NCBI GenBank assembly: GCA_029851415.1
Contig: CM056741.1
Coordinates: 174,761,021-174,825,020 of the forward strand
Source of the DNA: Eretmocerus hayati
Taxonomy: Eukaryota > Arthropoda > Insecta > Hymenoptera > Aphelinidae
Length of the DNA: 64,000 bases
Direction: 5' to 3'
In this document: one piece after another, positions 3,575-64,000 of the stretch
Layout of the letters: each line of letters begins with the position of its first letter
How positions within the stretch are numbered: position 1 is the first letter of the stretch
Translations under genes and position numbers: made by a program
Notes under the pieces: model-generated
The model's database searches: none
What the model saw: only the letters and a program-made list of their open reading frames with translations
Told to the model about the DNA's origin: nothing

Positions 3575-5632
3575 ATGATTTTCGGAGTGCTGAATCAATT
3601 GATTGATACGGAGTTGCATTGGAATATAAAGATGATTGTTGTGAAAAGAAATGTAAAGGAATATTCGAATAAAGAAAGAGATGTATAGGAATATTCGAAT
3701 AAAGTGAGAGTTAGTCGAAACTTTGTATTCACCAATCGAATGAGCAACTCGAAAATGGTCTTAACCAAATGCCAAATCCAAAAATTTCCTTTTTTTGAGA
3801 GGAAAAAAGGAATTTGAATCATGTTTTATCAATAAAATGAAAATTTCGCATCAACCAATCAATTCAGAATGAGAGAAAGCCTATGTCTGCAGGTGGTTGA
3901 AATTGAGTTGAATGAGTCGTAGAAGGAGCTCGAAAAGAAGTTTACAGGAAAAAATGAGTATCAATAGAAATATCTACTTATATTCTGAATTATTTTTTTG
4001 AGGAAGCATTCTAGATGAGTTTGGGCCATCTACACTATGGCTTCTTGAACAATATCCATCCTTTGGTTAAGGCGGACTTTGGATACAAGGGGTTTACATA
4101 TGATTAAAATGGAGATTTTGGTGAGAATATTGATTTTTTTTTTTAAATTTAAGATCTTGGAAGATGAATAGAAATTTCGATCTCAACCAATCGATATGAG
4201 TTTCTCCGTGGAAACTTTGAAATAATATGTGCCTACTTGTACGAACCCTTAGAACGTTTAAAGAAAAAATTTTAAAAAGTCATTATCGATGTATTTTTGC
4301 GTGTTCTTTCTGGTGCAATCATCAATTATTCGATCCGGGGCTACCGGAAAAAATTATCATCAAAAAAAAAGGTGAAAATGTCAGGTCCGTGTGATGTGGT
4401 TTTTCTTTTTTTCGACCTTTGCGAGTATGTAGCACCAGCACCGAGAGGCTCGCTATGCTACTTACGTATTGAGAGACGGAATTTTAGGAATCTTGTTTTA
4501 AGAAGCCTATGGATCAAATTTGACTGAAAAATGAGAGCTGGCAAATCACTGGGCTGCCATATTTCTGATTCTCTACAACTTGTAGAAGGCCAAAAAGTGA
4601 TCAGGTGAACAGTAGGGGAGAAAGGGTGGCGGTAAAAACAACACACACACAGAGGGCCTCAAAGATGAGTCTCTCATAGTTTTGGAATGGTTCATGGAGA
4701 AAAAGCGTTACCCACAATCAATAGATTTCGGTGAGGGGAACAGAATGGTCTATAAGCATTGTTGATATAAACGGAATTTCGTGGAAGAAAATATTGGATT
4801 CACTGAGAAATTTGATCAAAAATCTTCTGGGGCAAAAAAATATCCTCTCTAAAAAAAGCAAAATGGAATTATGAAAAAAAAAAAATGAAAAAAAAAAAAA
4901 GAATATTGCGGGATTTGAACCATCACCTTCCGCGTGTGAAGCAAAAGCTTTGCCACTGAGCTAAGTGGTCATCTAAAAGAATCGGTCTAAATGCCGCTCA
5001 TGTTTGTCGGCTCCCCCCGGTTGGAATGCGGGTAAAATGAGGGATTTCTGCTCGGGCCGGGTTATTTATGGCCCTGCTCGAATGACTTATTCCAAATTTG
5101 CAATATTCCTCAAAAGTGCTCAAAACCACAAGCAAATGTGAGATTCATCTTCACCTTTTCAACACCTTCTATTCGAAACTCGAATCGTGAAAATCGGGTG
5201 ATGTCCAGTAATCAATTTGGAATGCTGATAATCTATCTTGCTAGCCACATGATTACTTGATATCAGCCGATTTTCATGATTCGAGTTTCTTTGAGAAGAT
5301 CTTGAAGAGACGAGAGTGAATTTAACATTCGCGAATAGTTCTGTGCAATTTCTAAGAGTGTTACAAATTTACCGTAGGTAATTAGCGCAGGGCCATAAAC
5401 ATTGGGTCCCGAGCGCTCACCTAATTGCCAAAAGGGACTGACCGATTTACCTGCGGCCCAAGACGTCGCTCTGCGGGGAACCTAAGCTCCAAGCTAAGGG
5501 AGTCCCGAACGTCGCACTACAGCTTCCTCAGCACAGCATTACAGACACCCGAACGTCGCGTTGCGGATCCTCCCTAATGTGACGTTGAGGAGAGTTCCCC
5601 TAACGTGACATTCGGATCTTTTTTTCCGTGTA
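3575..5632 (-). repeat. Right arm of giant palindrome
   Basis: Reverse complement of 541-2598 with only a handful of substitutions. It ends at 5632, after which similarity to the left flank stops abruptly. Confidence 0.9.
4901..4970 (-). tRNA. tRNA-Val(CAC)-like relic in right arm
   Basis: Mirror copy of the relic at 1203-1272 on the opposite strand, with the same box A, CAC anticodon and box B, and the same unpaired acceptor ends. Confidence 0.4.
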
Positions 5633-5948
5633 GAGTTGAGCTGAGCAGAGGTTCGACGACCGAGTGCGGAGACGCGCGAGCGGACCACCGAGAGCGGTTT
5701 TTTTTTCTTTTCGCGCACGCGCACCATGTACCGAGAAATTCAAGCAATTCAAGCAGAGGCTTGCTTTCCTTCTTCTCCATTTTGATATTCTTATACTTGA
5801 CTCACGGGATGTATTTTGATGGATTCCACAAACCCTCATGTGGTCTGCCTAACTTTTTATTCCTATTATATGAGCTGCAGTAGCAAACTTGGATTCCAAA
5901 AATTTTTTTGGCATGCGCGTGCATAATTTACTATTTCATGACTTGCTG
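5633..5948. other. Intergenic, nothing recognised
   Basis: The first 100 bp are G+C-rich with many CpG (5636-5730). Short open frames exist on both strands, but none has recognisable motifs. Confidence 0.4.
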
Positions 5949-6354
5949 CACTGAGAAAAAATTCTTGGTCGTACAACCTTGCGTTTTGCCGTATGACCGA
6001 AAAGTGGTATAGCCAGGAGAGCAATACCGATTTTGTCATCGCATCAATCCATCAGATCGATTTGGCAGTCTGATATTATAGCCAGAATAAATAAACGTGG
6101 CCCATATATTTCAAATGCTCTGATATTTCATGGATTCACAGTCACATTACGGCTATTTTGCCACAATATCTACCAATTTTTTGCACAGAGTGGTACCGGT
6201 AGAGGGACAAATATAATCGAAAGATTTTTAGGTTATCCACATATATGCAATAACAAAATCATTTTGCTGTGGTGACAATCCAGTGTTGGTCTGACGGCAA
6301 TACCACGTAACAATACAGTCGTATTGTGCTGACGGCAACACTTTATTCTCATGT
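5949..6354 (+). mobile_element. MITE family A, copy 1
   Basis: Starts with CACTGAGAAAAAATTC and runs about 405 bp, with strong similarity to the copies at 39638-40046 and 40498-40898. Its right terminus has decayed (TTCTCATG instead of TTCTCAGTG). The 80-codon open frame inside is a by-product of the repeat and recurs in the copy at 40498. Confidence 0.8.
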
Positions 6355-25900: not shown

Positions 25901-28439
25901 ACACCGAACTCGAGTGAGCTGGGTGACGGCTAGCTTGCGTATAGCTGTGCGGCAAAACCCAGATCACAGTAAAATTGTCGTATTTCCAACGTATTTCCAA
26001 CGTTTCACGAGAAGCGCTTCGATTGGCCGAAATCGCTGAAAAATGAGTGGAGGGGAACGAGGCGAAGTGTAATAAAAGCGTAGAAAAAACTCCATACCAT
26101 TCATCGGACATTTTACATCCGTTTCCGGAACCCTCGCCGGAACCAGTCATAGAGAATTCTATCTCTCCCAATTTACTAAGTAGTCGAATTTGAGTAACGT
26201 ATAGAATGAGCTCATAGAGATCCTTAGGATCGGATGAGAAACTTTTGCGAAAATTTTCGAAAAAAAAAAGAAAAAAAAAGAAAAAAACATCCTTTTCCAT
26301 GCCCGTGAATGAGAATAGTATAACTTGAAAACATAATTTTGCTCTGCATATTTTGATTCAAAAACATCACCGAAATTTTCGCACATTCACTGGGGGAAAA
26401 TCTATATCGTCATCTGTTCGCCCACACACGAAGCTCTTATACGCCTTCACTTGTTAACTAGAAACAAGCTGACGTAATGATGTGCCACCGCTAGAGATAT
26501 GAAATAATAAACCAAAAGTGGCGACTGTGACAGAATGTTTATTGTCATATGACCATGGAAGATTGCGACTTACCGATCCTCAGAATTCCAATTTTGTACG
26601 TGAAGCTATATAACTCACACAAATTCGGCTCTTGACCGATTATCATATGATTTCGGTCAAGTTATTGTCAACAATCTTTCTTGTCACCAGATGAGATTTC
26701 TCATTTCGAAACACTTATTTAATTGAGTAGAGTATTTTTAGTTCCGTTTTTGATTGACCTCACAAACTCACAGCTTATTCATTTAGATTTCCGAAATACT
26801 TAGTCCGACGGTAGTTATCATGACAAAACGTCAAACTACGAAATTAATGCATTGTTTTAATAATACCAGAACGGATCTTATCCTTTTCAGAGTCAGATAA
26901 ATCGAAGAAAGGCTTCAGTATAGACCTTTCTCTCATAGAATTAAACATTCCTTCGTGAAAAAGCAATTAAACTTGCCTGATATTTCAAAGTAGTCTAAGC
27001 AGTATATCTACTTCTATATAGGTAAATTTAACGCGACATTGACGATTCGCCGTAGGGCTAAATACTCTCTTCCACTCAAATTTGCGGGACCTTTGCAAAA
27101 CGACAAAATTGAAATTCGACGTCGTCCTTTACTTCCTCTCTTTAGCCTTGTGCATTTAAATGAAAATTAAGGCTAGAGAGAGAGAGAGAGAGTCTCCATC
27201 TCGGCACTGAGCCTTGCAATCGCCGATCTTGTAGAGGTACTCTCGTCGCTATCTATGAATATTCATACATGACAGAGCGGGTTTATAGCGCACCCTGGTT
27301 GGCTTTTTCTCGTCCTTCCAGTTTGAGTCAGAGACGCCTGCTTGGCGTATTTTCTGCCTATCTGTGAAGCCTGATTCTGAAATGTGCACTTTGACTCGTT
27401 GAATGAATTTCCATCTAGTGACTAGATAATTATCTGTGCCTTAATTCATCAAGTCTTGGAAGGCATGAGAATTTTGATGATACTCCTGAGAGTGGGAATT
27501 TAGGGAGACTGTGAGGCTCGTTTGAGATAATATCCCACAAGAACGTAATGAACAAAATATTGATTGAGACTCAAATTTTGTTCTAGTCATTTTTCGGCTC
27601 TTTAAAAAATACAAATATCTGCCATCCCTGAGCGTATGGGAAATCTTTTTTGGACTTGAGCATGTAAATGAAAATTCTCGTATCAATCATCGTTTCAAAA
27701 TTGGAATTGCTTCAACCTGAGAAAAGATTGAAAGATTATGAAGGGTTATCCGGAGATTTCGAAAGATTGGAGAAAATGGTACGGGAAACCCGGTTAATTC
27801 GAAAATTGCCTCAGGGGATCTCAATTGTGAACTCATTTCTTGTATTATAGAGGTGAATCGAATTTTGAGGAAAGTATCTGAAATACGACTCATATGTTCG
27901 TGATTCCAGGCTTCTCCTCGGAATCAATCGAATCTTTAGGTATGAGGTAGAATTCTCATTTCGTGAGATTCAAACGGAACACGATTTATATCACGTGGTT
28001 ATAGTTAAATATCCTAACGTTCGGCGCTGTAGTCTTGTCTATTTAGGATTTGTTCGTTTGAGATTTAATTTAAGATGCCATTTGAATTCGAATGAGGATT
28101 TTGTCAAAAATCAAATTTGGCAGTGTTGTGTCGGTCGTTTCTGGAAGGATGGTTTATTTAAATTCTGACATTTTTTGCGTAGCTATAGCTCCATATCTCC
28201 TTCCTATTGAGAAAAAAGAAAAAGAACTTCACTGGAGTCACAACATGTTTTGCTACACAAACCCGAGTCGAATTCCAAAGTGAAACTAGATTGAAAAAGC
28301 CTCATCTTGATGACTGTTGAAACAGATACTCACAGTTTGTCGAGAAGATAACGAGGTCATTTTAAAAAATTGTCATATTTACAAAAATTATATGACTCCG
28401 AGATAGAATTCTACCTTGAAATGAACGAAGCTTCATTAT
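25901..28439. other. Intergenic, nothing recognised
   Basis: No supported gene. Contains an (AG)n run at about 27174-27192 and A-rich runs near 26260-26285. Confidence 0.4.
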
Positions 28440-31320
28440 ATCTCGTAGGCCCGAGTTAAGGTGGACACCCGTTGGCATTTTTTTCCATGCGGGGTACAAA
28501 TTAGATCGGAGTTGATTATCACATGGTTCGACATTCTGCCTTGGATGATGAAGTGAACAAATCGAGAAAATGAAAAATTCGACACGGACGTGAATTTCTT
28601 TTCGTCTTTTAAGAAAGATACTTTTGCGATAGGGCATCGTGTAGCTCATCAAATATGGGGTCCGAAATGACTTGTCCAATAATTTTTTTACTGCTCAATT
28701 TGGCAGGAGAACTGGGGGAAAAATTCCTAATTTGAATTTGCCACCACAATTGCCGTAGAGGTTAGTCGCACTACGTATTAGGTGATGTTATTGTTTCGGT
28801 ATAATGTCGATTGCTCTTGTTATCGTTGGTGTTCAACCTATGATCACGAATGTTGTCTTGTAGGTTATATGCAGCCACGGCATTGACAATAAAAACTCGT
28901 GATCGAGTGAGAACTTCGATCGGCTTTACACCGTCGCAAAATATCGGATGCATCGAGCATGTACTCTTCTATCATTAGACTCTTGTACTGAAAGGTGCGG
29001 AGTAATGATGCGGAAAAATTTGTTTAGTAGTCATGGGATCAAAAACCTCCAATATAGGACGAAATTGGAACGATCCCCCATTCCAACCTCTTAGAAAATA
29101 GTAATGCCCAGCCGGTTTAGGTGGTGGTTTTCAATTTTAGACATTTTATCAACCAAATTCTGAGTACAAATTTTGAGAATATGTATCACACGTGGTAAAC
29201 AGATCATGGGCACGAGTTGGATCGGTATCTCATAGCTGGGAAAATTTTAAAAAATCTGAAAAATCGTGGCTTTGTCTGCTTTCTCACGAGCTTAAAATTC
29301 TATGGAGTGGGTAGTGCTTCCGAGAATTACAAACGTGAACTCATACTAGAGAATAATAATGCCAAGCAGATTTGAATACTGCTTTTGAGTTCTCAACATT
29401 TTCTCAACCAATATCTGAACGCGAAGTCTGGAAAAAGTCTGCATCATAAGTAGATGATTTATAGGCATAATTTAAAACAGCATCTCATAATCGGGACGTG
29501 GATAAATACACGAAAATTTGTGGCGTTGCGACTCTACAGTTCTGAGATCAAAGTTCTTAAAAGTGGTTGAGTTTTTGGAAAATTTTAAATACGAACCACT
29601 CAGAAATGGGTGATTCCAAGCATATTTTAGTTTTGCTCTTCGAGTTTAAGGGTTATATCATGTAAAATTTGACTACAAAGTTTGGGGAAGTTTCCATCAC
29701 AGATCAATTATTAACACAAATGAAACTAGTATCCAGTAGCTGGGGAATAGAAAAATGTCTGAAAAAAATTGTGGCTTGGACTGACCCAAATATGATGTCA
29801 AAATTCTCGAAAGCGAATGAGTTTTTTTTTCAATTCCAAACTCGAGTATGATTGATATCACGATTCTCAGTAGCTTGCCCTTTTTCTATAAACCTTTTCG
29901 CCCCTCTAAAGATGATGATTTCATATAGCTCGGCAGTTGGTTCTCAATCATTTTCGAATTATTTCCTACTCTCTATAGCTACAGGTTATTGTTGCAACGC
30001 GTGTTTACAATTTACTTTGATGCAAACTCTTCTGAGATTTTGTAGTCAGATTTTAGCTGACAGAACTTTTATAATCAAAATGCAGAACTCGAATCTGCTT
30101 GGCATTACTGTTCTCTAGTAGGTTCACATTTAAAATTTACACGAAACCTTTCCATTCTTAAGGATTTTGGTCTCATATGTGAGCAGTCAAAGCCTTAATT
30201 CTTTCAAACATTTTTATACTCCCTGGCTATGGGGTACTGGTTCAACTCGTATTTATAGTCTACCTTCGATGCCAACTTTCCTCAAACTTTGTAGTCAAGA
30301 TTCAGCTGACAGAATTTCTATAATTAAAACGCAGAACTTGAATCTGCTTGGTATTGCCATTCTCTAGTGGGTTCACGTTTGAAATTTACACAAAAACCAC
30401 CCGTTTTCTGAAAATTGTGATCCCATTCTAGGTAACCAGCAGAAGCCACAATCTTTTTGAAACATTTTTCTACTTTCCAGCTCCTGGGTACCAGCTCAAT
30501 TCATGTTTATGATGTACTTGAGATGTAAACTTTCCCAAACTTTGTAGTCAGAGTTTGGGTAAAAATAAAATGTCTAAAAGTAAAAGCCAACATCTGAAAC
30601 TGGTAGACATAACCATTTTCTAAGAGGTTCGAATGCGGGATTGTTCCAATTCGTCCTACAATGGAGATTTTTGATCGCGCATGACTACTACACAATTTTT
30701 TCCGCATCATTGGACTCTTGTACTGAAAGGTACAAGAGTACATGCTCGATGCATCCGATATCTTGTGACGGTATAAAGCCGATCGACATTCTCACTCGAT
30801 CACGAGTTTTCATTGTGAATGCCGTGGCTGGATAACCTACAAAACAACATTCGTGATCATAGGTTAAACACCAACGATAATAAGAGCAAGTGACATCATG
30901 AGTAATTTTGTAGATTTTTTGTCCTTGATGTTTAATATATGAGCAAGTGACATTATTCCGAATCAATAATAACATTACCTAATACGTGGTGCGACTAACC
31001 TCTACGGCAATTGTGTTGGCAAATTCAAAATGACCTATTTTCCATTAGTCTTCCTGCAAAATTTAGCGTTGAAAAAATTATCGGACAAGTCATTTCGGAC
31101 TCCAAATTTAATGAGCTACACCATGCCGTATCGCAAAAGTATTTTTCTTGAATATTTCGAAAAAACTTTTTCGGCTCGCATCGAATTTTCCATTTTTTCG
31201 ATCTGTTCACTCCGCCATTCAAGAGAAAATGTCGAGCCATGTAAAAATCAACTTCGATTTAATTTGTACCTCGCAAAGAAAAAAAATGTCAAGGGGTGTC
31301 CACCTTAACTTGATCATACG
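28440..31320. mobile_element. Fold-back element with ~250-bp internal units
   Basis: The outer arms are inverted copies: TTAAGGTGGACACCC at 28456 pairs with GGGTGTCCACCTTAA ending 31308, and GCCGTAGAGG at 28752 pairs with CCTCTACGGC at 30999. Inside, each arm holds about three tandem ~250-bp units. Anchors in the left arm are near 29158, 29412 and 29668 (variants of GACTACAAAGTTTGG). Anchors in the right arm are near 30041, 30289 and 30541 (TTTGTAGTCAGA). The arms are clearly diverged, so this is older than the palindrome at 541-5632. Confidence 0.8.
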
Positions 31321-32581
31321 AGATATCCAAATTCATCTTCCGATAGGCATGAATTTCACAAAGCACAAGGGTATCATCGCGCATCGTGATTCTAAGCCAC
31401 CCACTCAACAAAATCAAACTCCGTATACATACATACTTATATGCACTCGACTCATGAAAAAAAAAAAGTATAAGAAACCCCTATTATACTTGAAAAGTTC
31501 AAAATCATGCATATCCGCGTCAACGGAAGTGAGAAAATCTCATCAAATCCAACCGCACTCTAAATACTATACTAACGTCAGCCGCATAATTCAACGCATC
31601 AAATTTTTTCTTTCCGGGTTCCCGGAAATCCTATACCCATCATTTTAGACACCAATAAAGGCCTCACACCGCCATACATATATAGGAAGAAACTCCTCAA
31701 GGGTATAATATATAGACTCAAGCACATACCGCCTCGCACCCTCATCCACTTCCAAATAAAGTCGCAGATAGATGAGAAGAAGAGTAGCCATACGTCGTGT
31801 TCCTCAAGTGGGATATTTCAAATTGATTGGCCGCTATTGAAGGTGTGATGACGTTGACGAGTATCCGGATCTGCCAAGAGGATGATTAGACTATTACTTT
31901 GTCCAAGAGATGCCCGCATCTAGTCAAACAATGGCTGCCTATATACATATTATACAGACATATATAGACACAGAGAGACAGCGAGATGAAAACCGAGTTT
32001 GTGAGATGACGAGGAATTCTCTGCCTTTGCAGAAGCTTCGTCGAGAGTTCTATCTCTGATATATATATATATATATATAATCGAGGCAGGGCTTGAGAGT
32101 TGAACATCAGGCCGAGTATAGAGTGAGTGAGAGAGAGCTTTCCCCGTTATATCAAACGAAGAGAGCGAGAGATGTGCTGGAACTTTGGGAAGCAAGATGG
32201 AGGTGTCCTCGAGTGTTTTCGCTCGCGGCGGGCGTCGGACCCTTGGAATAACAGACGCCAAATTGAATCCTCTACTCGCTTTGTGTCCCCCCCCCCTCTC
32301 TCTCTTTCTCTCTGTGAGCTTCCCTCCAATTCACTTTACCGCCATATATAACCCTATGTAACCTTATTTATATATATGAATTCTATATATCTATATATAT
32401 TTAGCCACCCCGAAAGCGTTAGAATTCGTCTTTAGACGAAGCCAGCCATCGTCTTTTCCGAGAGTTTTTCCGACCTCAACAAGCTCTTTAGAGCGATTGT
32501 AAGGGTTGCAGAAGCTTTTTCTCGCCATCGCCTTCATTACCTATATCCCTCATCCTGAAATTTTTCCCCCTTTTTTCCCAG
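31321..32581. other. Intergenic with simple repeats
   Basis: Contains an (AT)n run at about 32058-32081, a C8 plus (TC)n run near 32287-32312 and an AT-rich stretch near 32365-32400. The part 32120-32300 is G+C-richer and open on both strands. A 5' exon there is conceivable but unsupported. Confidence 0.4.
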
Positions 32582-36707: not shown

Positions 36708-37753
36708 ATGCATACGTTGTTCGGTGAACAGAATGCCTATTACAGGCATCCGACGGGTGTACCTATGGGTATGGGTACTCCTGGTTACCCTGGTGTAGGT
36801 GGCGCTCCAAGTTATTACGAGGCACAGTACAGGTATGGTTATGCTGGTGCTACAGGATATCATCCAGGTGTCGGTGGTATTGGTCAACCTCATGTTCATC
36901 ATCCACATGCTAAGGATATGCAAGTTAAACCACCATACTCGTACATAGCACTCATCACAATGGCCATACAGAAAGCACCGGATAAGAAGATAACTCTCAA
37001 TGGTATTTACAATTTCATCATGGAAGAGTTCCCGTATTATAGAGAAAACAAACAAGGTTGGCAGAACAGTATCAGACACAATCTTAGTTTGAACGAGTGT
37101 TTTGTGAAAGTTCCAAGAGATGATAAGAAGCCTGGAAAAGGTAGTTACTGGTCTCTGGATCCTGACAGTTACAACATGTTTGAAAACGGTTCGTATCTCA
37201 GACGTAGAAGACGTTTCAAGAAACAAGATGCTCTGAGAGAAAAAGAAGAGGCTCTAAAACGTCAGAATATGTTGCCACAGATTCAGATTAAACAGCAGCG
37301 TCCAGATGTCGATACCAAATCTTCGTTGAATTCGGTACATCCAGAAAAGAAACTGTTGGATCAACAACAGGTATCAGGATTGTGTAAACCCAAGAGAGAA
37401 CCTTTGACTGATACAACTACTTCAGCAACGCATTGCATGGTTCTGAACAATAACAAGTATCACAATCATCACAGTCCCATACAAGATTGTAAAAGTGTAC
37501 CAGTTGTTACATCAGCAAGCCAAGGAGTCATACAAAGTACCCTGGTTCAAAGTCACCAAAGTCATCATCATCAACAACAACAGCAACAACAACCACAAGC
37601 ACAACATAACCTCCAAGACATGACTCTCGATCCAACTAGTTTCAGTGTTGACGCTTTGATGACTGGTACAACTCGTGATAGTTCAGCTACAAATCAACTT
37701 CAAATGACCAGTCAACTGATTAGGGATCATCAACATCATCATAACAGTATACC

Positions 37754-37792
<39 letters not shown>

Positions 37793-38194
37793 CAGTTTAA
37801 TGAACACAAGGCAAGAGACAAATTCTTTGAGCAGTGTTGTGCAAGTGGATCAATCGGTGATTTCTAGAGATTTACAAAATTCTGTAGCAATAAGTACGAC
37901 ATCATCGGCTTCTACGACGGCAGCGGTTGCCGCCATGATGGCTTCTTCGGGATATGCTCACGTAACGAGTAGTAGTCTTTCAAGGGTTAACCCGTCGCCA
38001 ACTTCTCATATGTATCCAACGGCATACTGCCCAAGTAGTTACATAATGGATCATCATACTGAATATAATGCAACATCGGCTGCTAGAAGCCATAGTAATG
38101 TTGCTCATGCTCAGTGGTATCAGGAGGCTTCGAGTCCTGACGCAACTGCGGCTATGTATCAGGATACGCAATCACCAAGCTGTCAGCTTTACAG
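36708..38194 (+). CDS. croc: Forkhead transcription factor FoxC/crocodile, exon 1
   Basis: Encodes residues 1-495 plus two bases of codon 496 of a sequence-specific nuclear DNA-binding protein. The start is ATG 36708-36710 in the context CAAGATG. Upstream in the same frame there is only TTG, and the N terminus [14 protein letters not shown] is the conserved FoxC/croc start. Residues 74-168 are the forkhead domain, from [15 protein letters not shown] through recognition helix [16 protein letters not shown] to wing residues [12 protein letters not shown]. The basic run RRRRRFKK (165-172) is a likely nuclear signal. FSVDALM (312-318) matches the eh1-like Groucho-binding motif of Fox proteins. 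His/Gln tracts lie at 284-298 and 350-361 (CAA-rich DNA). The exon ends at a perfect donor, ACAG/GTGAGT, phase 2. Residue 539 is the last one before the first stop, close to usual FoxC length. In Drosophila, croc acts in head patterning. Confidence 0.95.
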
Positions 38195-39637
38195 GTGAGT
38201 TTTTTTTTTTAATACATATGTTTGTCATCTCGGGGGCAAAATGGTTGTGCGTTACAAGTATTTCTTTCGGAGTTCATTCCTCTTGGAGTCGTTTACCTCA
38301 AACTTTGGAACGATTCACTTTTATTGATCTTCGTTATTACGTGATTGAGATCAGTACCTCGGTAATCGTGTGCTTGAATTTCTGTCATGAAGAAGTGCAT
38401 ACAAAGAAAATGTATCGATTGTGAATTCGTGACGTGCAGCATTTGAAGTTGTGATATTGTTAAAATATATCCTGGGTCGTTCGATCAAGAGAATTATAGC
38501 CCAAATAAGATCGTTCCATCAACTTCACACGATAACACTGATTTTCGACGTTTGCAAATGAATGATGAGAGTAACGAAATAATTATGGGGACCAATTATA
38601 AGTATATTTCTGAATCTCACACTGAATTAACACCTTCACTGCAATTGGACCCACCAGTGGGGCACCCAACGCACACAGGATTCGAACGCCATTTCGGCCA
38701 GTGCACTGAACGTGATCAGAACATCTTTTTGCATAATTTTACTAATATGAAATAAAGTGTTACTGACTCATAGCTCTGACCCCCAAAATAACAGAATTCT
38801 ACTATGATTGAGTCATTGAAATTCTTTTTAATGATCAATTCCACCTTCACTCGCTGAACTAGGCCAGAACTCGGAGCAAACTCTTTGCTCAAACTCACTT
38901 CATGGTCAAGGGTCTCAGAAATTGTTTTGCCTGACTTTCCCGAATATCCTATTTCATTCATACGAACAAGGTAGAGAATTTATCAATCTTTTAGCTCGTA
39001 CATTCGTGGAAATGGATTTCGTTTACGAATAAAACTGCTGCAAAATCTTCTCTCGCAAGTGTGAACCAAATGTCTGTGATGCATTATTGAGAGTTCAATG
39101 ATCGACAGGCGTTGGTATATACTCATGCATCAATACTCATGAGTGCGTGAAAACATATTTGCATTCTGTGGTGATATTATTCTAAGTGATATATCGCTAA
39201 TGAGTTAGGGTTTGATCATATATGATCTGAACTGTTACGACAAATTCATGAAAACCACGTGATCCGAAAGAGTTGCAATGATTGTGAGAAAAATTCATCG
39301 ACCCGAATCCAAGTCATTGATCTCATTGAACAACTGCAAAAAAGTTCAAAGGTTGATGACACAATCTTGCGCTCGAGATAAATATTGGAATTGTTTAGCC
39401 AAAATTATCAAATGACAAATATGGTGAGTGGATATAAATTTGGATTTCACATGGACGATGGGAATTGATTGATAGCAAATGTTGTAATAGCGAAGAAACA
39501 TCTCCATCCAAGTTTTCATTCGTTGACGAAATCAGCGCATCAGTGTTTCATTATTTTAAAAAGGTTGGAGAATCTCTTTGGTCTCCTGGGATTACGTGAA
39601 AATTTACTAATATAGGAGATGTTGCGGAATAAACTTA

Positions 39638-40046
39638 CACTGAGAAAAAATTCTTGGTCGTACGGCCATGCGTATTGTCGTACGACCAGAATGGTATTTG
39701 CTGCAGAACAATACCGATTTTGTTATCGCATCAATCTATCAGAACGATTTGGTGATCTGGTAATAGAGCCAGAATAGTTAAATATAACGCATATATTTCA
39801 AATGCCCCGATACTTGATGAATTAACAGTCATAGTACGGTTCTTTTGCTACAAATGCTACCAATTTTTTGCACGGGATAGCACCGCAAAGGGACAAATAT
39901 AATCCAACGATTTTTTAGGTTATTCGTGCCAGATTAGTTCAATAACAAAATTATTTTGCTGTGGTGTCAATCCAGTATTGGTCTGACGGCAATACCACGT
40001 AACAATACAGTCGTATTGTTCCGACGGCAATATTTTATTCTCAGTG
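39638..40046 (+). mobile_element. MITE family A, copy 2
   Basis: 409 bp with intact termini CACTGAGAA and TTCTCAGTG, flanked on both sides by TA, a likely 2-bp target duplication. It lies in the same orientation as copies 1 and 3 and inside the croc intron. Confidence 0.85.
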
Positions 40047-40497
40047 TACAGCTGATCGCTATTCAATCAAACGAGCTATTTTACAGTGTGTTCTTGAAAG
40101 GAATCAGATACTTTGATCCCACCAAAATTGTGTTTCATCTTATCCTCAAAAATAATTCGCTTCGTGAAATGTAAGAGGATGCCAGAGGCAGTAAAAAAGC
40201 GAAGAAAAAGGATCCCTTGTTCTCTCAACTTATCAAAACCGTCAATGAATTTTGACAACAAGCAGTACAGTGGCCATAAGATATAGGTCTTGAATTTGTT
40301 CATCCGCACGAAACTGATATTTTTTCTCCTTTTCTCATCTCCATGATTTCCCATCAGATCGTCTCGAACTTTATCAGTGAATGATTGAAGAAATCCTTGA
40401 GAAACGTGTGCGTATCTAATCTGGCAGGAGTTTCTCAGGTGAAAATCTAGACCAACTTATTTGCATTTTGAATTTTGTCATTGAACAGTCTGGTCTG

Positions 40498-40898
40498 CAC
40501 TGAGAAAAAAAATTTGGTCGTACGGCCTTGCGTTTTGCCGTACGATCAAAAAGTGGTATAGTTAGGAGAGCAATACCGATTTTGTCATCACCCCAATTCA
40601 TCAGATCGGTTTGGCAGTCTGGTGTTACTGCCAGAATGAATAAACGTGGCATATATATTTCAAATGCTCTGATAGTTGATGAATTCACAGTCACATTACG
40701 GCTATTTTGCCACAAAAGCTACCAGATTTTTGCCCAGAATGGTGCCGGTAAAGGGACAAATATAATCGAAAGATTTCTAGGTTATTCGCGTGCAATAACA
40801 AAATCATTTTGCTATGTGACAATCCAGTATTGGTCTGGCGGCAATACCACGTAACAATACAGTCGTATTGTGCTCACGGCAATATTTTTTTCTCAGTG
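40498..40898 (+). mobile_element. MITE family A, copy 3
   Basis: 401 bp with the same termini, flanked by TG on both sides. It is closest to copy 1 internally (GCGTTTTGCCGTA, AAAAGTGGTATAG). It sits 451 bp downstream of copy 2 in the croc intron. Confidence 0.85.
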
Positions 40899-43196
40899 TG
40901 AGGTTCTCTTTGCTTCGGCCGAGGCTTCAGCACGCATAGCGACGCACGAATGAGTCAAGAAGTTGTATAGAAGATGAATTTTTCATATTAACGGTCAGCT
41001 GCCGTCGGGTCGGAATTATCAGAACATCATATTTTCACTGAAATATACTTAAACAAATGTGCCTACTCTTATCGTTACGAAAAATTCTCCGGGATAACTC
41101 TTCGAGGTTTGGTGGCAGTCTTTTCCACCTTACCGCGATGATGAATTTTCAATGTCGGTGTAAATTTTGAGAAATGTTTTGAAAGTAGTTGAGGATGCCA
41201 AAAGTTATTTTCATGATTGGAATGATTTCTTCTTTCTTGTGTTCAGTTTGAAATATAGAGGTCAGTGGACTTTTTCTTCAGCTTTCAAATTATTTGATAA
41301 AATACTCTTTTGAGGGTGAACTTTTTTGGTGAGGAACTTCTGTTTTCAAAAAGGGGATATATTATTTCTCAAACAATGAAGTCTTCAATAATTGCTTATC
41401 CATCCAATAAAGTGTAGAAATTTATCTATAGTGTATGATGATCTAACACGAGTCTCGAAATTAAAGATGTCAGCTCGAATTCTCAAGGTCTACTGCTCAG
41501 TGATACCACCATAAAGTTACTCAATTTTGTGTAGTGGATACTAAAATTCTTAAAATCTTGATGAAATGAAAAGTTGACTTCCAATGCGATATGAGTTTTA
41601 AATTCTTGAATCATCGTGCGGGTCGATTTGAATCACATCTTTTTGAGCATGGCATCTCCTTTGATTTCACAGTTTGCTCAGAAACAGATGGATTCTCGAC
41701 AGTCAAAAAAGATTTGTCTGGTTTATTTCATGCTCATTTCGAAACTTTGAACGAATAAGTTGGGTCGCAGAAAGTCATTAGAATCGCTGCATTGAAACTT
41801 GTCTTTACAGACCATATCTTTAGATCCTGCAACTATTGTCAGAGCCTGCGTTTAGTAGCTACAGGAATAATGATTTGAGAAATTTATTTCATAACCAAAA
41901 GTGCACGGTGGTTGACATATTGCAGACTTGAGGGCCATGTGAAGGATTTTTAAGACAATATTTGAGCGCACTTTTGATTTTGCCACCTTCACATTTGACA
42001 AATGATGTCAGATGATATAGCACATTTGTAAACAGAGAGATTCATAATAGTACTAGAGAATAAGTATCCCAGGATCATAATTACACATTAACAATGGTCT
42101 TTCATGATAGGGCTCATCGAATGCGATTCCTTCCAATGCTCTTATTTTGTGTTTTTCCATCTCAAATGTCCATTTTCAGGAGCTCCTCATCTTGCTTAGA
42201 ACTCTCATCAACAGATTTCTTCTTGATCCGTACATCATTTTACGCAAGCGATTCGTGGTACCCAAGGCAAGATTCGATCCACGCAGATTTACTGCGATAA
42301 AATTTTTTTCAATTTCCAGAAAATTGGTGGAACGACTTTAGCTGGATTTGGGTTATACTTTACGCTCATTCTCTTTATCACAATCATACTAGATCAGAAA
42401 TTGTATGCACGAAAATCCAAGACATAGTTGAGAAATTGAAAATCGGTTAAGGGGCACAAGTAAGTCCCTTTAGGAAAAATGACTCAAATCCTGGGTCAAA
42501 AAGCAATATTTGCAGCAATACAGTTCAAAATACATGTAAGCGATCTGCTATTTCCTCACATGCACTGTAATTAAATTTCTAGTCAATTTTCTCTTCCACA
42601 CAGCTGATAGAAAATAGTGTTAGATTATTCAGACTATAGTTTGTGATTTTTGCATCTTCGTGATAATTACAACCCTCGCAATAAGTTCTAATCGGCCATT
42701 TAACTCGGTGATGGAAAACTAACATTTCCCGCCCCTGTATCAAAATCTTCTATTCTATTATTACATTTGTCATCACTGCTTTCCAGGATTGAGGAGGTCC
42801 TTTCGTCCTCTCTATAAAAACAAATTTTCATATCCATTGTACGTTTGAGAATCTGATCCCCGCGCAAAACGAGAGACTCCGCGAGTCACAAATTTATTTT
42901 TCTGATCTTTTCATTGGTACCACTCTATCACACCTGAGCTTGCTGTTTCTATTATTCATACACACAAAAATGATTCAAATTGTTTTTTCCGTAATTTGAT
43001 GAGAGAGATTTTCATGATCGGCCCAGACTCTACGTAATAATCATTAACCGACCTCGTGTTCGAGCCGAGACTTTTTTCAAGATCAGCACTCTTCAATCCC
43101 ATTCCTTGTTCAAATAAAGGCTCAAACTTCACAACCCGGATAGAATAAAATTCACGAAATTCGTTTCTGAAAAACAAAAAATTTGTATGATTTCAG

Positions 43197-43329
43197 ATCG
43201 AGTCCGCCAACGTCGTCGTTATCGTCGGGTGCTGCACCGTCGCCTCCGCTCTATCACCACAGATACTATCAGGATTGCAATGCCGTAAGCACGAGTGGTA
43301 ATTTACCAATAACGTTACACAAATACTGA
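43197..43329 (+). CDS. croc: croc exon 2 to first in-frame stop
   Basis: The base A at 43197 completes the Arg codon split by the intron. Then 43 codons follow to TGA at 43327-43329. The segment is Ser/Pro-rich, then contains LYHHRYYQDC, and ends LPITLHKY. The tyrosine/Asp-Cys pattern recalls the extreme C terminus of vertebrate FoxC proteins as I remember it. It is the only continuation found with a good acceptor in the right phase, and the standard product would be 539 residues. The frame does not end as coding-like sequence at this TGA; see the next entry. Confidence 0.85.
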
Positions 43330-43497
43330 GAATACCGAAATTCAAGATCCCTTACACGGGATCTTGAACAGAATCATCATCATCAACCACAATCAAATTC
43401 CATCGGCAATGGTGGTAATCAATTCGATCCCAATTTGGTATACGTTAAGCAAGAATGGATTCCTGCCAATGACGACTTTTCCAAAGAGTGGAATTGA
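43330..43497 (+). CDS. croc: Probable stop-readthrough extension of croc
   Basis: In the frame of exon 2, 55 further codons follow the TGA at 43327-43329 and end at TGA 43495-43497. The extension has a charged start (TRDLEQ), a HHHQPQSNS stretch like the body of the protein, an Asn/Gly-rich part, and the terminal block NLVYVKQEWIPANDDFSKEW. VKQE fits the SUMO consensus (hydrophobic-K-x-E). A perfect hairpin starts 11 nt after the first TGA. Readthrough would yield 595 residues, counting the decoded stop. Alternatives are a sequencing or assembly error in a sense codon, an unseen splice variant, or an ordinary 3' UTR that is open by chance. Confidence 0.6.
   Translation, partial: EYRNSRSLTRDLEQNHHHQPQSNSIGNGGNQFDPNLVYVKQEWIPANDDFSKEWN
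43341..43368 (+). promoter_or_regulatory. RNA hairpin after croc TGA, putative readthrough element
   Basis: TTCAAGATCCC (43341-43351) pairs perfectly with GGGATCTTGAA (43358-43368) around the 6-nt loop TTACAC. The stem begins 11 nt after the TGA. Stem-loops in this position promote stop readthrough in known insect cases such as Drosophila headcase, although there the structure is larger. Confidence 0.6.
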
Positions 43498-44850
43498 GAT
43501 ATATTAGGAATCTTGGCTGATTTCATCGCTCATAGTGATCATTATACCCAAAAAGTCATTTTTTGACGAAATGGTGTATGGTGAGCGACGGTTGGTGAAA
43601 ATGTGAAATGAATTGATTTTTGGATTGATGTGAGCCAATTTGATGAGGTGAAATGTGTGAAGGAAAAATTTTACTGATAGGTCAGAAGGAGCTTTTTGAA
43701 TTGTGTTCAGATTTGATTACGAATTTTTGTTGTAAAATATGGTGATTATATATTAATCGCGGGAAATTTGTTGTAGGGGTCATTGTTGTGTATTTTTTAG
43801 GCGACTTTCTAATTGATAAATATAACACGGTACACCAGTGTATACGATGACGGTGACGTTTTGTATATAATAGATGATATATAGATCTAGTGGTTGGTAA
43901 TATTTAGAGAACCAGTGAATTCAATTCTGAACGCAGTTAATTTCGCGGATGGCATTTTAGATCGTCAGTGCGTTGAGATTTTATAAAAATTCAAGAATAG
44001 CTGAAGTATTAAATTATCAAATACATATCTTGATTTTCGTTGCAATATTGAGAAATAATTACCGAATTAGTGTGATGAAAAATTTTTTTTATCCTGTTAC
44101 TACTGACTCAGATACAATAATTGTGTATTTTTCTCGTTCAATCCTCGTGAGTTTGACGTTGAAGCAGATCATTGAACTTTGACTTGCCAAATTGTACGTC
44201 ATTAAACTGTATCGATCATTTTTGACTCACGTGAAAACAAAATTTGAGTTAATTTTGGAGGAAAAATTTGACTTTTCTTAGGAATTTCATGACGTATCAG
44301 TGAAGCAGGGTCAAGGTAAAATCTCAACCTCTTCTCACGATTTTATGTACAGCCTGGTTAATTTTTGCGTCCACGTGCCATCTGTGCAAACTATTTGGAT
44401 GCATTTGAGTTATATACGCTGAGTAAACAGTATCGACACCTGTTTTGCTATCATTTGTCATTCCAAGTCATCCTGAGGACGAGCTAAAAAGTCGTTAAAC
44501 TTTCTGATTGAATTCTGCCTTTCAATCGTTCATTGGCTGTTTCGATCATTGAAATCATAACAATTCCAACTTGCTAAAATTCCATTTCAAATTCTTTATC
44601 ACTGCAGAAATAGTTTTTTTTTCCTGACAGTGATGGTTTCGAACAATTATTCAAAAAGTTGTTCTTGGCTGGATAGGTGAATTTTGAGCATTACAACAAA
44701 ATTCGCTATAATTCTGGAACTCGAACATCTATAGCGTATAGAATCAAATGAAAATTTCTGGTGGGTGAAACTCTAAAACCGTATCGATTCAGTTGTATGA
44801 AAAGTGAGTATAGTGTATGATAGAATTGTAATAAAAAAATAGTTGTAGAT
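43498..44850 (+). other. croc: Likely croc 3' UTR
   Basis: AT-rich and without a gene. The first convincing poly(A) signal I see is AATAAA at 44830-44835, followed by a GT-rich stretch (GTTGTAGATGTGTATAG). The true 3' end could lie further on. Confidence 0.4.
44830..44835 (+). terminator. Possible croc poly(A) signal
   Basis: Canonical AATAAA followed within about 10-25 nt by GT-rich sequence. Other AATAAA copies near 45340 and 46075 are alternatives. Confidence 0.35.
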
Positions 44851-47800
44851 GTGTATAGTTTGATCATGTGCATTTACGAAAAAAGAGCTGAGATATTTAT
44901 TATTATTGATATGTAGTTATGAAAATGAATGATATCGGTTATTCATTCTTAGTGTGAATAGATAAGAATATTTCAAAGTTGACGAGATAGATCGACTGCG
45001 TAAAATACGAATACTGATCGCTTGAGTATATATTGATTCGAGAGTGCGATTTATCGTGGTTAATTGTAGTTCACTATATCAACGCATCTCGAGCTTAAAA
45101 ATGTCCATTTTATGTCTGCAAAGTTGCCCCTTCGACGCAAAATGAGAATTTGTGTGATTTTCGATTCTCTTCTATTCGTGGTTTCAAAACGAATATGCAA
45201 TGAGAGTCTTCGAATCACAAAGACTTTTTATGTTTAATCGGATTTAATTGAATTTTTCTTATAATTTTCACAATTTCGAGAAGGTGTGTATGGAGGATCA
45301 GATCGGGAAGAATTTTAATAGAATTTTGATCGAAATTTGAATAAAATCCGTTAGGAACTGGCACCACCAATCTTTAACTTTCGAAGAAAATTCACAAAAT
45401 GCCCAGAAGAATGGCAATCGCATAACCCGCGTCATCAAATTCTATTTTTTAATTTTTACCAGTGATACTGCTTTTTTTTATCCACGGCCAAAAAAATAAA
45501 AAAGCAACCTCGTCAATCTAGAATCACCTGAATGAATGTAACATATTAGAATGCGATGACGTATATACATCATGAGTGAGAGAAATCTCAATCAAAAGCA
45601 AAGGAATTTTAGGCAACTGAACAACATCAGATGAATCGTTGCCTGCGATGAGTTGTAATCTTATTGATGATAATAATGTGTCACAATTTCGTGTGCACAT
45701 GAAGGATATTGAATAGATAGCTGAACGAATCAATATTTCATTCGTTTGAAAACTTTTACTGTATTATATTGAGATGTCATCAGAAAAGTTAGAGGCATCA
45801 TCCATTCTTTTGTGACAATCGATGGTGAATGTGTACGTCTCAATTGAAAACGAATGTCATCGTGTGGGTGCAGTTATATTAATGGATATTTTTTAGAGCT
45901 CGAGATTGTTAGATCTCTGTGTGTGTAAAATAGATGACGAAATTGAAAATATTTATTCGATGAAATTGTACATTAGCAAAATTAGCAAGTATAAGAATTT
46001 AGAGAACTATCGATATAACTATATATTGTGGTAGTTTAAAGGATGAATGAGTGCATCGAGCGAAATTTGAATTAAATAAAATTTCGCGAGAACTGAACGT
46101 CATTTTTATGATATCCTGATCGTTATTATAATTATAAATAATGCGGAATTATTAGTACGTAGAAATTATAAGAATAAACTCATTATCGATCGAACATTAT
46201 TGTATTGACTTTCATTTACAATCCTGAGACGTAATAACGTATGACATCACCGTTACAAAAAAAAAGTATGACATCTCACATTATTGAACATATTTTGAAA
46301 AAAAAAAATAATGACAATGTATAAAAGTATAGAAACAAGATTCCAAACAAAATTTAGATGATCAAGCTGATCAGCTCAGAATCACGTCTACGAATTGTAA
46401 TGAGAGAATCGATTCATTTTCATTTTTGAATATGATTTCTGAATTCATTAACGATTATCATTAAAACTGAAAACTTTTCTGACGCGAAATTTAAATATTT
46501 TCTATCCATGCAGGATAATATTGTTAATTGCAATTTTTTACTTTCTTGCATTCTCAAAACTATATGCCTGCCATTGTTTGGATTTCAACTTTCTGACTGA
46601 GCATAGAAAAACAATTGGAGAAATTTACTGGCAATAAGTAATTTTTTATAAGAGTATTGAAAATGTCTGTTTTGAATTTCGCTTTGAAGAACGATATTCG
46701 AACCAAAGTCTTCGCAAATCCGTCAATCACACTTAACACAATTTCGAGATATAAATATCCTCATGAATATTATTCGGCGTAAAAACCATACCTGCATTTC
46801 AAATTGTTTGAGAATGTTAGGATTTTTTGCTAGACGCAAAAGATCTGTTTTCTCGTTTTTTTTTTTAAATCTGGGCAACATATTCGAAGAGTTAGCTCAA
46901 AACGAAGCTTGGATTCGTGTTCAGACGCTCATTTTTCTTCTGGAAAGAATATTTGAATACCTTGTAGAAACGAGAATTTGGGGTTTCCTAGTTATTTTCG
47001 AGAAACTAGGGTTATTGCAGAAGTAGGATTTTTTTGTGTGCGTATTTTCGAAGTTAAAGACACGCTCATTAGAAATGATTTCTACGAGGGTTTCTATCAT
47101 ATAACTGTGCTGATCCAAAAAATATCTACACCTCAATATAATTCAACGTAGAATTGTTCGAATCTGCGATGTCCGAAATTAGCGTCGGGTGTAGATCCGA
47201 TTGTTTGTACTAATTTTTTGCAGAAATATGTCTAATCTTTCGTTAGCCCTCTGAACGTTCGTCGAAATTTGTGGCTTGATTATTTTTCGTGATGCACATT
47301 AGTCAAGTATGTGAGCGTCGTTTTGCCCTATACAAAGCATGCAAACTCCCTCTTTTATCAATAATCCTTGTTGTTAAAAAACTACAAAAGCAAATTTTGT
47401 TTGTGGCATAGACCCAAGTATGACTTTCTGACGCGAAATGATCGTCTAAACACGACTCGGTGCTCCGGTGTGAGCTACTACCGACTACCACGTAAGAGAC
47501 TTTGCGTATAGGCCAAGAAAACTTCTTAAATTTGAATTTTTTTTTCTCCATGTAGCTAAGAATTCTCACGTTCTGGAGCATTTTGGAGCTCGGATTTGGT
47601 GTTTACGCCGAAATTCTTATTAGTTCATCATCGTCCGGCTAATACGATATTCCGACCTCAAAAATGTGTTGTCCAGCATTTTTGATTCTTTTTCAAATTA
47701 TTCTATCAATGAATTATCAAATTCTAATTTTGACCACCCAAAACCCAAACGAGAATATTCAGAACTGGGTTTCTAACCAGAAATTAAACTTGAAATCTCG

Positions 47801-49672: not shown

Positions 49673-52600
49673 TTAACACGTTCGCTGCGACGGGTCCCAC
49701 CGGTGGGACCCGCTCACCTTTCTCTGTGTGCGGTGGTAATTAAAATCCCATTCAACCCGTTGATTGTTAATGTCCAGTATACTGGACAAGCTCTTTTCTC
49801 GATATTCCGTGATAACGCTTGATAGGAGCATTGGAAAAATCTGCAAGAAATCAGGAAATTTCTGGGTCACTATTAAATCATGTTGGCACAAGAATTAGGT
49901 CTCAATAGCATGTCGGTGAAAATTTGATCGATCATGGATCGAATTTTTTTTTGCTCTATTTGTTCGGAAATTTCCTCAGGAACACGATGGAATGTTCGAA
50001 ATTCCAGTCCGATGTTCAAAGCATGTCGAAAACCCGGATTTTGTATCAAATAATTTTTTTCTCGAATACTACTAGCCGGAGACCGGCGAAAAGTCACCAG
50101 TTTTGTCAAAGAGATCGAAAAACACACCATAGAATTTTTTCCGACCAGATCGGTTGCTGGGAAGACCTGGAAATGGGGCTCATACTTCGAGCGATATTCA
50201 CTTCTATGGCGATTTTTTAGAGGTTATGGGTCGGAGACCGATAAATACTCCCGGAAAATACGTTCCAATTGAGAAGATACACCCATATAATTTTTCGAAG
50301 CGATCGATCGCTGGGAACACCCAAAATCGACGCAATGGGAGGGCCGAAATGGGGTTTCTCTCCGATTTTTTGGAGGTTATGGCCGGGAGACCGGTGAATT
50401 CACCAGAATTATATTGTTACGTTGAAAATATAAGCACATGATTTTTATCAACCCGATCAATTGCTGGGAACACCCATAAACGAGGCAGAGGAAGGGCAAG
50501 AATGGGGGCTTTTTGCGATTTTCTGGAGGTTATGGCCAAGAGACCGGTGGATACTTCCGGAATTAGTTGCTTGGATGGGGAATCGTGCCACCGATTCCTC
50601 TCGACCAGATCGGTGGTTGGGAAGACTTAGAAAAGGGCTTCCGACTGAAAGCGATATTCATTCCTATGTCCATTCCTTGAAGGTTACGGGTCGGCGACCG
50701 ACACATACTCCAGAGGAAGGGCAAAAATGGGGGTTTTCTGCGATTTTCTGGAGGTTATGGCCGGAGACCGGTGAATACTCTTGGAACTAGTACTTGAATG
50801 GGGAATCGTGCCACAGATTTCTCACGACGGTTGCTGGGAAGACCTAGAAATGGGGTTCAGACTAAGAGCCTTATACGTTTCTATGTCGATTCCTTTGAGG
50901 TTATGGGTCGGAGACCGAAAAATACTCCAGGAGAATATTTTCCAATTGAGGAGATACACCAATATAATTTTTCGACCTGATCGATTGCTGGGAACACCCT
51001 AGATCGCGGCAATGGGGGGGGGGGGGGCGCAGGGTGGGGTTCTTGTCCGATTTTTTGGAGGTTATGGCCGAGAGAGCGGTGAATTCATCAGGGTTATATT
51101 CTTATGTTAAAAATATTTGCATATGATTTTTCTCAGCCCGATCAACAGCTGGGAATACCCATAAACGAGTCAATGAGAGGGATAGAAATGGGTTTCTCTA
51201 CGATTTTTTCGAGGTTACGGCCAGGAGACCGGTGAATACTCTCGGGACTAGTTACTTGAATGCTGGGTCGTGCTACAGATTTTCTCCGGAAAGATCGGGT
51301 GCTGGAAATACTTAGGAACGGGGCTCAGACTGAGAGCGATATCCATTTCTATGTTGACTCCGTCCATTTTCGTACTCCCGTCGCGTCGATTTTGAGTGTT
51401 CCCAGCGATCGATCTGGTCGACAAATTATATGGGTGTAGTTTTCCAAGCGGAAAATATTTCCCGGGAGTCTTTATCGGTCTCTGACCCATAACCTCCAAG
51501 GAATCGGCATAGAAATGAATATCGCTCTCAGTCTGAGCCCCATTTCTAGGTCTTCCCAGCAACCGATCTGGTGGAAAAAAATCTGTAGCACGATCCCCCA
51601 TCCAAGCAACTAATCCCGTAAGTATTCACCGGTCTCATGGCCATAACCTCCTAACAATCGGAGGAAAACACCATTCCTGCTCTTCCATTGCCTCGTTCAT
51701 GGGTGTTCCCAGCAATTCATCGGGTTGAAAAAAATCATGTGCATATATTTCCAACGTACCAATATGATCCTGATGAATTCACCGGACTCCCGACCATAAC
51801 CTCCAAGAAATCGGACGAAAACCCCATTTCAGCCCTCCCATCCCGTCGATTTTGGGTCTTCCCAGCGATCGATCGGGTCGAAAAATTATATGGATGTGGC
51901 TTTCCAATCAGAAAATATTTTCCGGGAGTATTTATCGGTCTCCGACTCACAACCTCCAAGGAATCGACACAGAAATGAATATCGCTCTCAGTCTGAGCCC
52001 CATTTCTAGGTCTTCTCAGCAACCTATCCGGTCGAGAAGAATCTGTGGCACGATCCCCCTTCCAAGCAACTAATTCCGGAAGTATTCACCGGTCTCTTGG
52101 CCATAACCTCCAGAAAATCGCAGAAAACCCCCATTCTTGCTCTTCCTCTGGCTCGTTTATGGGTGTTCCCAGCAATTGATCGGGTTGAAAAAAATCATGT
52201 GCTTATATTTCCAACGTAACAATATAATCCTGATAAATTCACCGGTCTCCCGGCCATAACCTCCAAAAAATCGGAGATAAACCCTATTACGGCTCTCCCA
52301 TTGCGTCGATTTTGGGTGTTCCCAGCGATCGATCTGGTCCAAAAATTATATGGGTGTATCTTCTCAATTGGAACGTATTTTTCGGGAGTATTTATCGGTC
52401 TCCGACCCATAACCTCCAAAAAATCACCATAGAAGTGAATATCGCTCGAAGTATGAGCCCCATTTCCAGGTCTTCCCAGCAACCGATCTGGTCGAAAAAA
52501 ATTCTATGATGTGTCTTTCGACCTCTTCGACAAAACTGGTGACTTTTCGCCGGTCTCCGGCTAGTAGTTTCCGAGAAAAAAAATTATTTGATACAAAAAC

Positions 52601-52973
52601 AGCTTTTTAGACATAATTTAAATCTTGGACTGGAATTTCGAACATTCCATCGTGTTTCTGAGTAAATTTCTGAACAAATGGAGCACAAAAAAATTCGATC
52701 CATGATCGACCCAAACTTTACCGACATTTAATAGTCGACCATTTTTGAGAAAAATAATAATAATCAAAAATTTTTCAACTCTCTAATTTTGCCATTTTTT
52801 ACGGTTTTGACCTAGTGTTTGGTGTTCTAACCATCAGAAAGGGTTTGCGAGTGCCAGAAGTCACTTCTAAAGTTAACGGGTTAATGGATCCCACCAGTGG
52901 GACCTCGAGTGGGACCCGTCACACACAGGGAAGGAACTGCGATTTCTATAATGTCACAACGAACGTGTGTCAA
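49673..52973. mobile_element. Fold-back element with TTAA end and ~155-bp unit arrays
   Basis: Left end TTAACACGTTCGCTGCGAC. The inverse of the right end reads TTGACACACGTTCGTTGTGAC. The TTAA/TCAA flanks suggest a piggyBac-like TTAA target. Both subterminal regions carry palindromic motifs: GTCCCACCGGTGGGAC inside a 22-bp perfect palindrome (49691-49712), TGTCCAGTATACTGGACA (49771-49788), and TCCCACCAGTGGGA near the right end. The interior is an inverted array of about sixteen ~155-bp units, each with GCTGGGAAnAC and GGAGGTTATGG. Eight face right (50150-51350) and eight face left (51360-52490). Outer arm positions sum to 102636. The long open frames on both strands are repeat products. No transposase is present. 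Confidence 0.8.
50098..52540. repeat. Inverted array of ~155-bp tandem units
   Basis: Anchors of the GCTGGGAA motif lie near 50155, 50310, 50462, 50614, 50831, 50988, 51149 and 51301. Inverted TTCCCAGC anchors lie near 51399, 51554, 51707, 51859, 52015, 52167, 52320 and 52475. Two alternating sub-types (GGGAAGACC and GGGAACACCC) suggest a higher-order unit of about 460-680 bp. A G run sits at 51018-51028. Confidence 0.85.
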
Positions 52974-63692: not shown

Positions 63693-64000
63693 TTGCTTTT
63701 GTGAGGAGCGATCAGCCACTGCCACCGCCGCCGCCGACGGCAGCTTATTCTATATAGTTTTCCCTTTTTTGACGTTAAATCGAGCGTGCGCGTAGCTGTG
63801 TTGTGGGGCACAGGTTTTTTTTCTCTATTGTAGTCAATTTGAGCTTATTTTATGGGTCTATATGATAGAATAGAACAAAGGGCCTGAGAGTTCCATGGGA
63901 AGGAAAATTATTGAGCTAATTTGTATGATAGACAATGTTGCACCTCACGCAGGAATTTACTCCCGTCGAAACAAAATTGAGTTCAATCTTGAATGGAAGA

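Follow-up and report, generated by a model that had tools for sequence, protein, structure and literature searches.

Ordinary termination is the most likely reading of a UGA at a conserved stop position, followed by a hairpin and an open frame, in FoxC/crocodile of Eretmocerus hayati

Introduction

Does translation of FoxC/crocodile (croc) in the parasitoid wasp Eretmocerus hayati end at the UGA that closes its reading frame, or does it sometimes run on? The stop codon is followed by 55 open codons, within which a perfect RNA hairpin lies, and then by a second in-frame TGA. A preliminary description of this locus suggested that the protein may be extended by programmed stop-codon readthrough. 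Here we examine the gene, its stop codon and the sequence after it in a 64-kb window, by which we mean the whole stretch of DNA analysed.

Results

The FoxC/crocodile gene

The protein deduced from the gene in this window contains a forkhead domain (Pfam Forkhead PF00250, E 2.3e-40). From this domain, and from closest relatives that are named crocodile or FoxC by their sources, we identify the gene as FoxC/croc, an identification by similarity. Two exons are joined across a single intron (Table 1). The residues at the junction, CQ(L/M)YR followed by SSPPT, are found in 24 of the 25 proteins that reach the C terminus (M in 3); unlike these, P0025 carries an insert at the junction point. The spliced coding sequence of 1620 nt yields 539 amino acids and ends at the first TGA. 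Both this length and the 595 residues given earlier for the readthrough form were reproduced from the spliced frame.

Table 1 Features of the FoxC/croc locus in the window.
Feature	Position	Strand	Basis
FoxC/croc exon 1: start ATG, forkhead domain, low-complexity linker	36708..38194	+	PF00250; matches P0001
Exon 1 donor, TTACAG/GTGAGT		+	splice sites
FoxC intron, phase 2	38195..43196	+	junction residues shared with relatives
Exon 2 coding part, conserved C terminus ...YYQDCNAVSTSGNLPITLHKY	43197..43326	+	protein alignment
Possible phase-0 87-nt mini-intron, GTAAGC ... GAACAG, spanning the first TGA	43285..43371	+	weaker rival reading, unsupported
First stop, TGA then G; conserved terminator position	43327..43329	+	sequence; protein-level comparison
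55-codon open stretch, candidate readthrough extension EYRNSRSLTRDLEQNHHHQPQSNSIGNGGNQFDPNLVYVKQEWIPANDDFSKEWN	43330..43494	+	ORF reading
Perfect 11-bp RNA hairpin, 6-nt loop, 11 nt past the first TGA	43341..43368	+	folding, stem scan
Second in-frame stop, TGA	43495..43497	+	sequence

The deduced protein is 100% identical to the E. hayati record P0001 over the matched C-terminal region, and the match is full-length except for 118 residues that are missing from that gene model. P0001, which is a public model, omits residues 251-368 (window 37458-37811), a His/Gln-rich part of exon 1. As Nasonia P0003 keeps the start of the omitted piece, the in-exon intron of P0001 looks like an annotation artefact.

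Repeats were also recorded in the window. An inverted repeat of 2,059 bp, with arms at 541-2599 and 3574-5632 that are 99.8% identical and about 1 kb apart, probably represents either a foldback element or a recent insertion of an element whose inverted ends are long. Three copies of a repeat of about 400 bp (5946-6351, 39638-40047 and 40495-40899) are 79-88% identical pairwise, and two of them lie inside the FoxC intron. Within 28438-31326, inverted pairs are formed by 28801-29717 with 30001-30899 (71%) and by 28438-28816 with 30941-31326 (81%). The segment 23849-24373 is an imperfect palindrome with an 87.6% match to its own reverse complement over 534 aligned bases. A dense cluster of repeats in direct and inverted orientation (67-91% identity across 0.2-0.8 kb) fills 49910-52727, where both strands carry long open frames.

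The first stop codon and the conserved C terminus

A protein search with the spliced form gave 35 proteins at E up to 1, among 111 candidates. Ten of them (P0026-P0035) end at or just past exon 1, as expected for ORFs from unspliced contigs. The C terminus is reached by the other 25, which comprise the E. hayati record itself, 22 others with names and two without; the names are presumably those of sawflies, ants, bees and parasitoid wasps. All 25 stop at the homologous residue, at the end of ...SGNLPITL(H/Q)KY (QKY in two), and 10 of the last 14 columns of their alignment are invariant. Since these proteins share the same end together with conserved columns, the 14 residues before the TGA are coding and conserved.

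Judged from this alignment, TGA 43327-43329 is the normal terminator of the family. The position of the stop is thereby shown to be conserved across Hymenoptera protein records; the codon TGA is that of E. hayati, and the other species were compared as proteins. A reading error at the TGA had been raised earlier as a threat to the readthrough proposal. It is ruled out by the stop position common to 25 of 25 proteins, and a recent nonsense change was rejected on the same ground. None of the 25 runs past the TGA position. As annotation stops at stop codons, the absence of the extension from protein sets is no argument against readthrough.

The open stretch after the stop codon

The coordinates first given for the two stop codons and the 55 sense codons between them are exact (Table 1). 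The accompanying estimate of a roughly 2% chance for 55 open codons is too low, as 148 of the 2784 TGAs in non-exonic window DNA (5.3%) are followed by 55 or more open codons. Over the same stretch the +1 frame is also open, for 64 codons (43313-43504). By itself the open stretch is weak evidence for readthrough and is shown to lie within chance.

The hairpin 3' of the stop codon

The perfect 11-bp stem, the 6-nt loop and the start of the stem 11 nt after the first TGA were all confirmed. Arms at 43341-43351 and 43358-43368 pair without a bulge around the loop 43352-43357, and the whole hairpin is 28 nt long. Folding of the RNA, which had been proposed as a check, gave a z score of -4.55 for an 87-nt stretch against 200 shuffles, and the predicted fold of an 83-nt stretch gave -5.18, also against 200 shuffles. 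No other perfect stem in the 64-kb window reaches 11 bp with a loop of 3-10 nt. Ten first-order Markov simulations of the window contained 0, 0, 0, 3, 0, 0, 0, 2, 0 and 0 such stems per run.

In a scan of 28-nt folds (63,972 windows, every second position, both strands), equal or better folds were found at two other places, around 49685-49691 and 63717-63721. The GC-corrected folding energy of the 100 nt after the stop was matched by 7.4% of 3196 windows, i.e., it is not extreme. The hairpin is a strong predicted structure, seen in one species.

Hairpin and open frame were also considered together. Among 6175 stop triplets in the window, an open run followed 315, a perfect stem of 10 bp or more lay within the next 60 nt after 70, and the next 60 nt had an MFE of -17.0 or lower after 148. 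The open run coincided with the perfect stem at 6 of the 6175 triplets and with the low MFE at 13, counts in which triplets close to one another are not independent. For E. hayati, with a reported 24,471 genes (PMC10482854), this base rate gives about 24-52 genes with both features by chance. The combination, at 0.1-0.2% of stop triplets, is unusual for one chosen gene, not genome-wide.

Coding potential of the extension

The coding measures took a single gene, FoxC exon 1, as their training set, and they differ from the Z curve of PMC5100048. The non-coding ORFs came from the 64-kb window and may include transposon ORFs. In amino-acid composition, the extension ranks at the 84th percentile of 326 non-coding ORFs when the average composition of proteins is the reference, and at the 88th percentile of the 326 when FoxC relatives are. 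It is mildly protein-like. The run that gave these amino-acid percentiles took the whole coding sequence for codons, and its exon 2 row is circular.

Phased base composition places the extension at the 99.4th percentile of 314 non-coding ORFs, in frame 0 only, a value that is uncorrected for the about a dozen measures examined. Its main source is A at codon position 2, i.e., hydrophilic residues. The known coding exon 2 reaches just the 83.8th percentile, so phased base composition discriminates poorly. In synonymous codon choice the extension does not resemble FoxC: it ranks at the 21.5th percentile among 326 non-coding ORFs, where exon 2 reaches 98.8 and nine pieces of exon 1 lie at 76-100.

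The full-codon score, ranked among 314 non-coding ORFs, puts exon 2 at the 100th percentile and the +1 frame at 78.3, above the 70.7 of the extension. RNY periodicity is 98.7 for the +1 frame versus 90.4 for the extension, and GC1-GC2 is 97.5 for the extension versus 31.8 for the +1 frame. The exon 1 rows are leave-one-out for synonymous choice and phased composition, and not for the run with full-codon score, RNY and GC1-GC2. These single-species measures disagree. As readthrough regions are described as scoring between coding and non-coding DNA (PMC5100048), the mixed pattern of the extension does not decide the question.

Searches for relatives of the extension

No homologue of the extension was found among the FoxC-length proteins matched by the spliced form (35 matches). 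With the readthrough form as query there were 8 candidates, none at E ≤10, though the query held the shared 14-residue end. As that conserved end also went unscored, this insensitive search is a weak negative. A search of short proteins with the extension gave no candidate sharing three words. The absence of a homologue from three protein searches of limited sensitivity weighs little.

Nasonia P0003, compared with a genome contig collection that holds no insect DNA, gave 222 pattern stretches and no relative. The pattern of the conserved C terminus was found in three bacterial MAG records (L001-L003), which were set aside, and in zero viral contigs, again in collections without insect DNA. Two other identities of the extension were considered and rejected. 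One is a known domain, for which there was no Pfam match even at E 10. The other is part of a repeat or transposon; no long second copy of 43197-43900 occurs in the window, and its matches other than itself are of 14-28 nt.

Discussion

Readings of the locus

We consider ordinary termination followed by a 3' UTR that is open by chance to be the most likely reading, with a probability of roughly 0.68. Translation would end at TGA 43327-43329, as in other Hymenoptera, and give the 539-residue protein. The next 55 open codons would be 3' UTR that happens to have no in-frame stops, and the hairpin would be a stable 3'-UTR structure beside the stop that arose by chance or serves some non-coding function. 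We infer that useful amounts of the extension are not produced. The open stretch and the hairpin could allow occasional readthrough.

Programmed readthrough is unlikely, yet arguable. The hairpin would slow or reshape the ribosome at the UGA, a near-cognate tRNA would sometimes be used, and a 595-residue FoxC with a hydrophilic tail would result. That tail contains VKQE, which we take to be a SUMO-type motif (psi-K-x-E). The stop position shared by all 25 proteins is in keeping with such a mechanism, as are the uniqueness of the perfect stem in 64 kb, the rarity of its pairing with an open frame, and the phased base and amino-acid compositions of the extension. In the dfr reporter of Drosophila, UGA is described as the leakiest stop, nearby stem-loops promote readthrough through their stability and not their sequence, and all six further stem-loops tested, which came from other genes, raised readthrough in the dfr stop context in fly cells (PMC13170385). 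Readthrough is abundant in bees, where 851 candidates are reported for bumblebees and at least 306 are inferred to be functional (PMC7826183). RNA structures within 100 nt are reported for 9-10% of Drosophila and Anopheles candidates and under 1% otherwise (PMC5100048). This enrichment and the bumblebee candidates make readthrough in a wasp plausible. The details at FoxC are less favourable. The base at +4 is G (43330), as first described, and not the C of the favoured UGA-C context (PMC5100048), and the codon usage of the extension is not coding-like, with a full-codon score below that of the +1 frame. Open runs of this length follow one TGA in about nineteen, the +1 frame is open as well, and the three protein searches returned no homologue of the extension. 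The stem starts after an 11-nt spacer, as against a dfr stem-loop at about +10 to +58, where a shift by 3 nt lowered readthrough (PMC13170385). At 28 nt, the hairpin also falls under the filter of that study (a stem-loop of 35 nt or more within the first 60 nt, with a loop of 3-10 and no more than 2 bulges), although its 6-nt loop and lack of bulges pass. The same study lists 1012 fly genes with qualifying stem-loops, 50 of which overlap predicted or measured readthrough, so a stem-loop near a stop is alone a poor predictor. Some stem-loop candidates gave little readthrough in the yeast or mammalian tests described (PMC5100048, PMC4132726). A literature search on croc or FoxC with readthrough gave no paper relevant by title and the start of the abstract; 'croc' is absent from the main texts of PMC5100048, PMC7826183, PMC3840789 and PMC13170385, and the fly, mosquito and bee gene lists sit in supplements outside that search. 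We hold it unlikely that FoxC of Hymenoptera undergoes programmed readthrough stimulated by the hairpin, with a minor isoform whose 55-residue tail may carry a SUMO-type site.

Splicing could bypass the TGA in another way. Alternative removal of an 87-nt mini-intron would take out the 14-residue end, the TGA and the hairpin and leave 566 residues ending ...KEWN, a reading that we find quite improbable. By the splice-site consensus, the donor GCC/GTAAGC lacks its exon-side part and the pyrimidine tract of the acceptor is poor. In favour of this reading, both sites keep the frame, the length is a multiple of three, and the hairpin lies wholly within the would-be intron. The amino acids after the acceptor are slightly more protein-like (86th/90th percentile) than those before it (77th/73rd), with short pieces (14 and 41 codons) ranked against 55-codon nulls. 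Of 6140 stop triplets, 330 are likewise spanned by a comparable GTRAG..YAG pair of 3n length (60-130 nt). Splicing would delete a tail in which 10 of 14 columns are invariant in 25 proteins, and the isoform is seen in 0 of the 35 protein matches. As for the UGA being read as selenocysteine, the in-frame UGA and the RNA structure downstream would suit it, but we give this almost no chance and reject it for practical purposes. No Rfam family reached its gathering score in 43000-46500, where the two matches at E ≤5 are to models of snoRNAs, and the Hymenoptera examined, Nasonia and Apis, are described as having lost selenoproteins and the capacity to make them (PMC2500217). This UGA is also located at a conserved C terminus.

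If readthrough of FoxC were real, a developmental forkhead factor would join the insect readthrough genes, and the locus would offer a minimal, easily tested hairpin for the trade-off between stem length, spacing and +4 base. If ordinary termination is correct, the locus shows how readily a lone stop and a hairpin suggest recoding, with 24 to 52 genes of this kind by chance.

Comparison with known readthrough systems

Headcase of Drosophila is a related case, in which an RNA structure 3' of the stop is likewise said to trigger readthrough (PMC5100048, PMC13170385); this is demonstrated experimentally in headcase, whereas FoxC has a predicted structure. The readthrough candidates of Drosophila, Anopheles and bumblebees share with FoxC a UGA, a conserved stop position, a coding-region intron and a predicted RNA structure within 100 nt. 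What defines them is the PhyloCSF coding signature of their second ORF, while that of FoxC was analysed here in a single species, and their +4 base tends to be C where FoxC has G. A further difference concerns CAGCAGCA, which is enriched in the second ORF or the 250 nt upstream of candidates and is not required (PMC5100048). It was not found in the 1620-nt coding sequence of FoxC, nor by eye in 43330-43494, which counts against readthrough.

The closest parallel is dfr/vvl of Drosophila. Like it, FoxC is a developmental transcription factor with a stable stem-loop that follows the stop directly and an in-frame extension. To this extent the architecture resembles, as the preliminary description held, an arrangement known from insects; the stop of dfr is UAG, and the FoxC hairpin is below the 35-nt filter. 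The UAG of dfr stands in a favourable +4 to +9 block that is required for its readthrough (PMC13170385), and FoxC has UGA-G. The dfr stem-loop is closer and longer, whereas the stem of FoxC begins at +15. For dfr there is near-complete sequence conservation in 31 dipterans together with reporter and in vivo evidence, against the one species from which the FoxC hairpin is described. With an 11-bp stem placed 11 nt past UGA-G, the geometry of the candidate FoxC readthrough lies outside the described dfr type.
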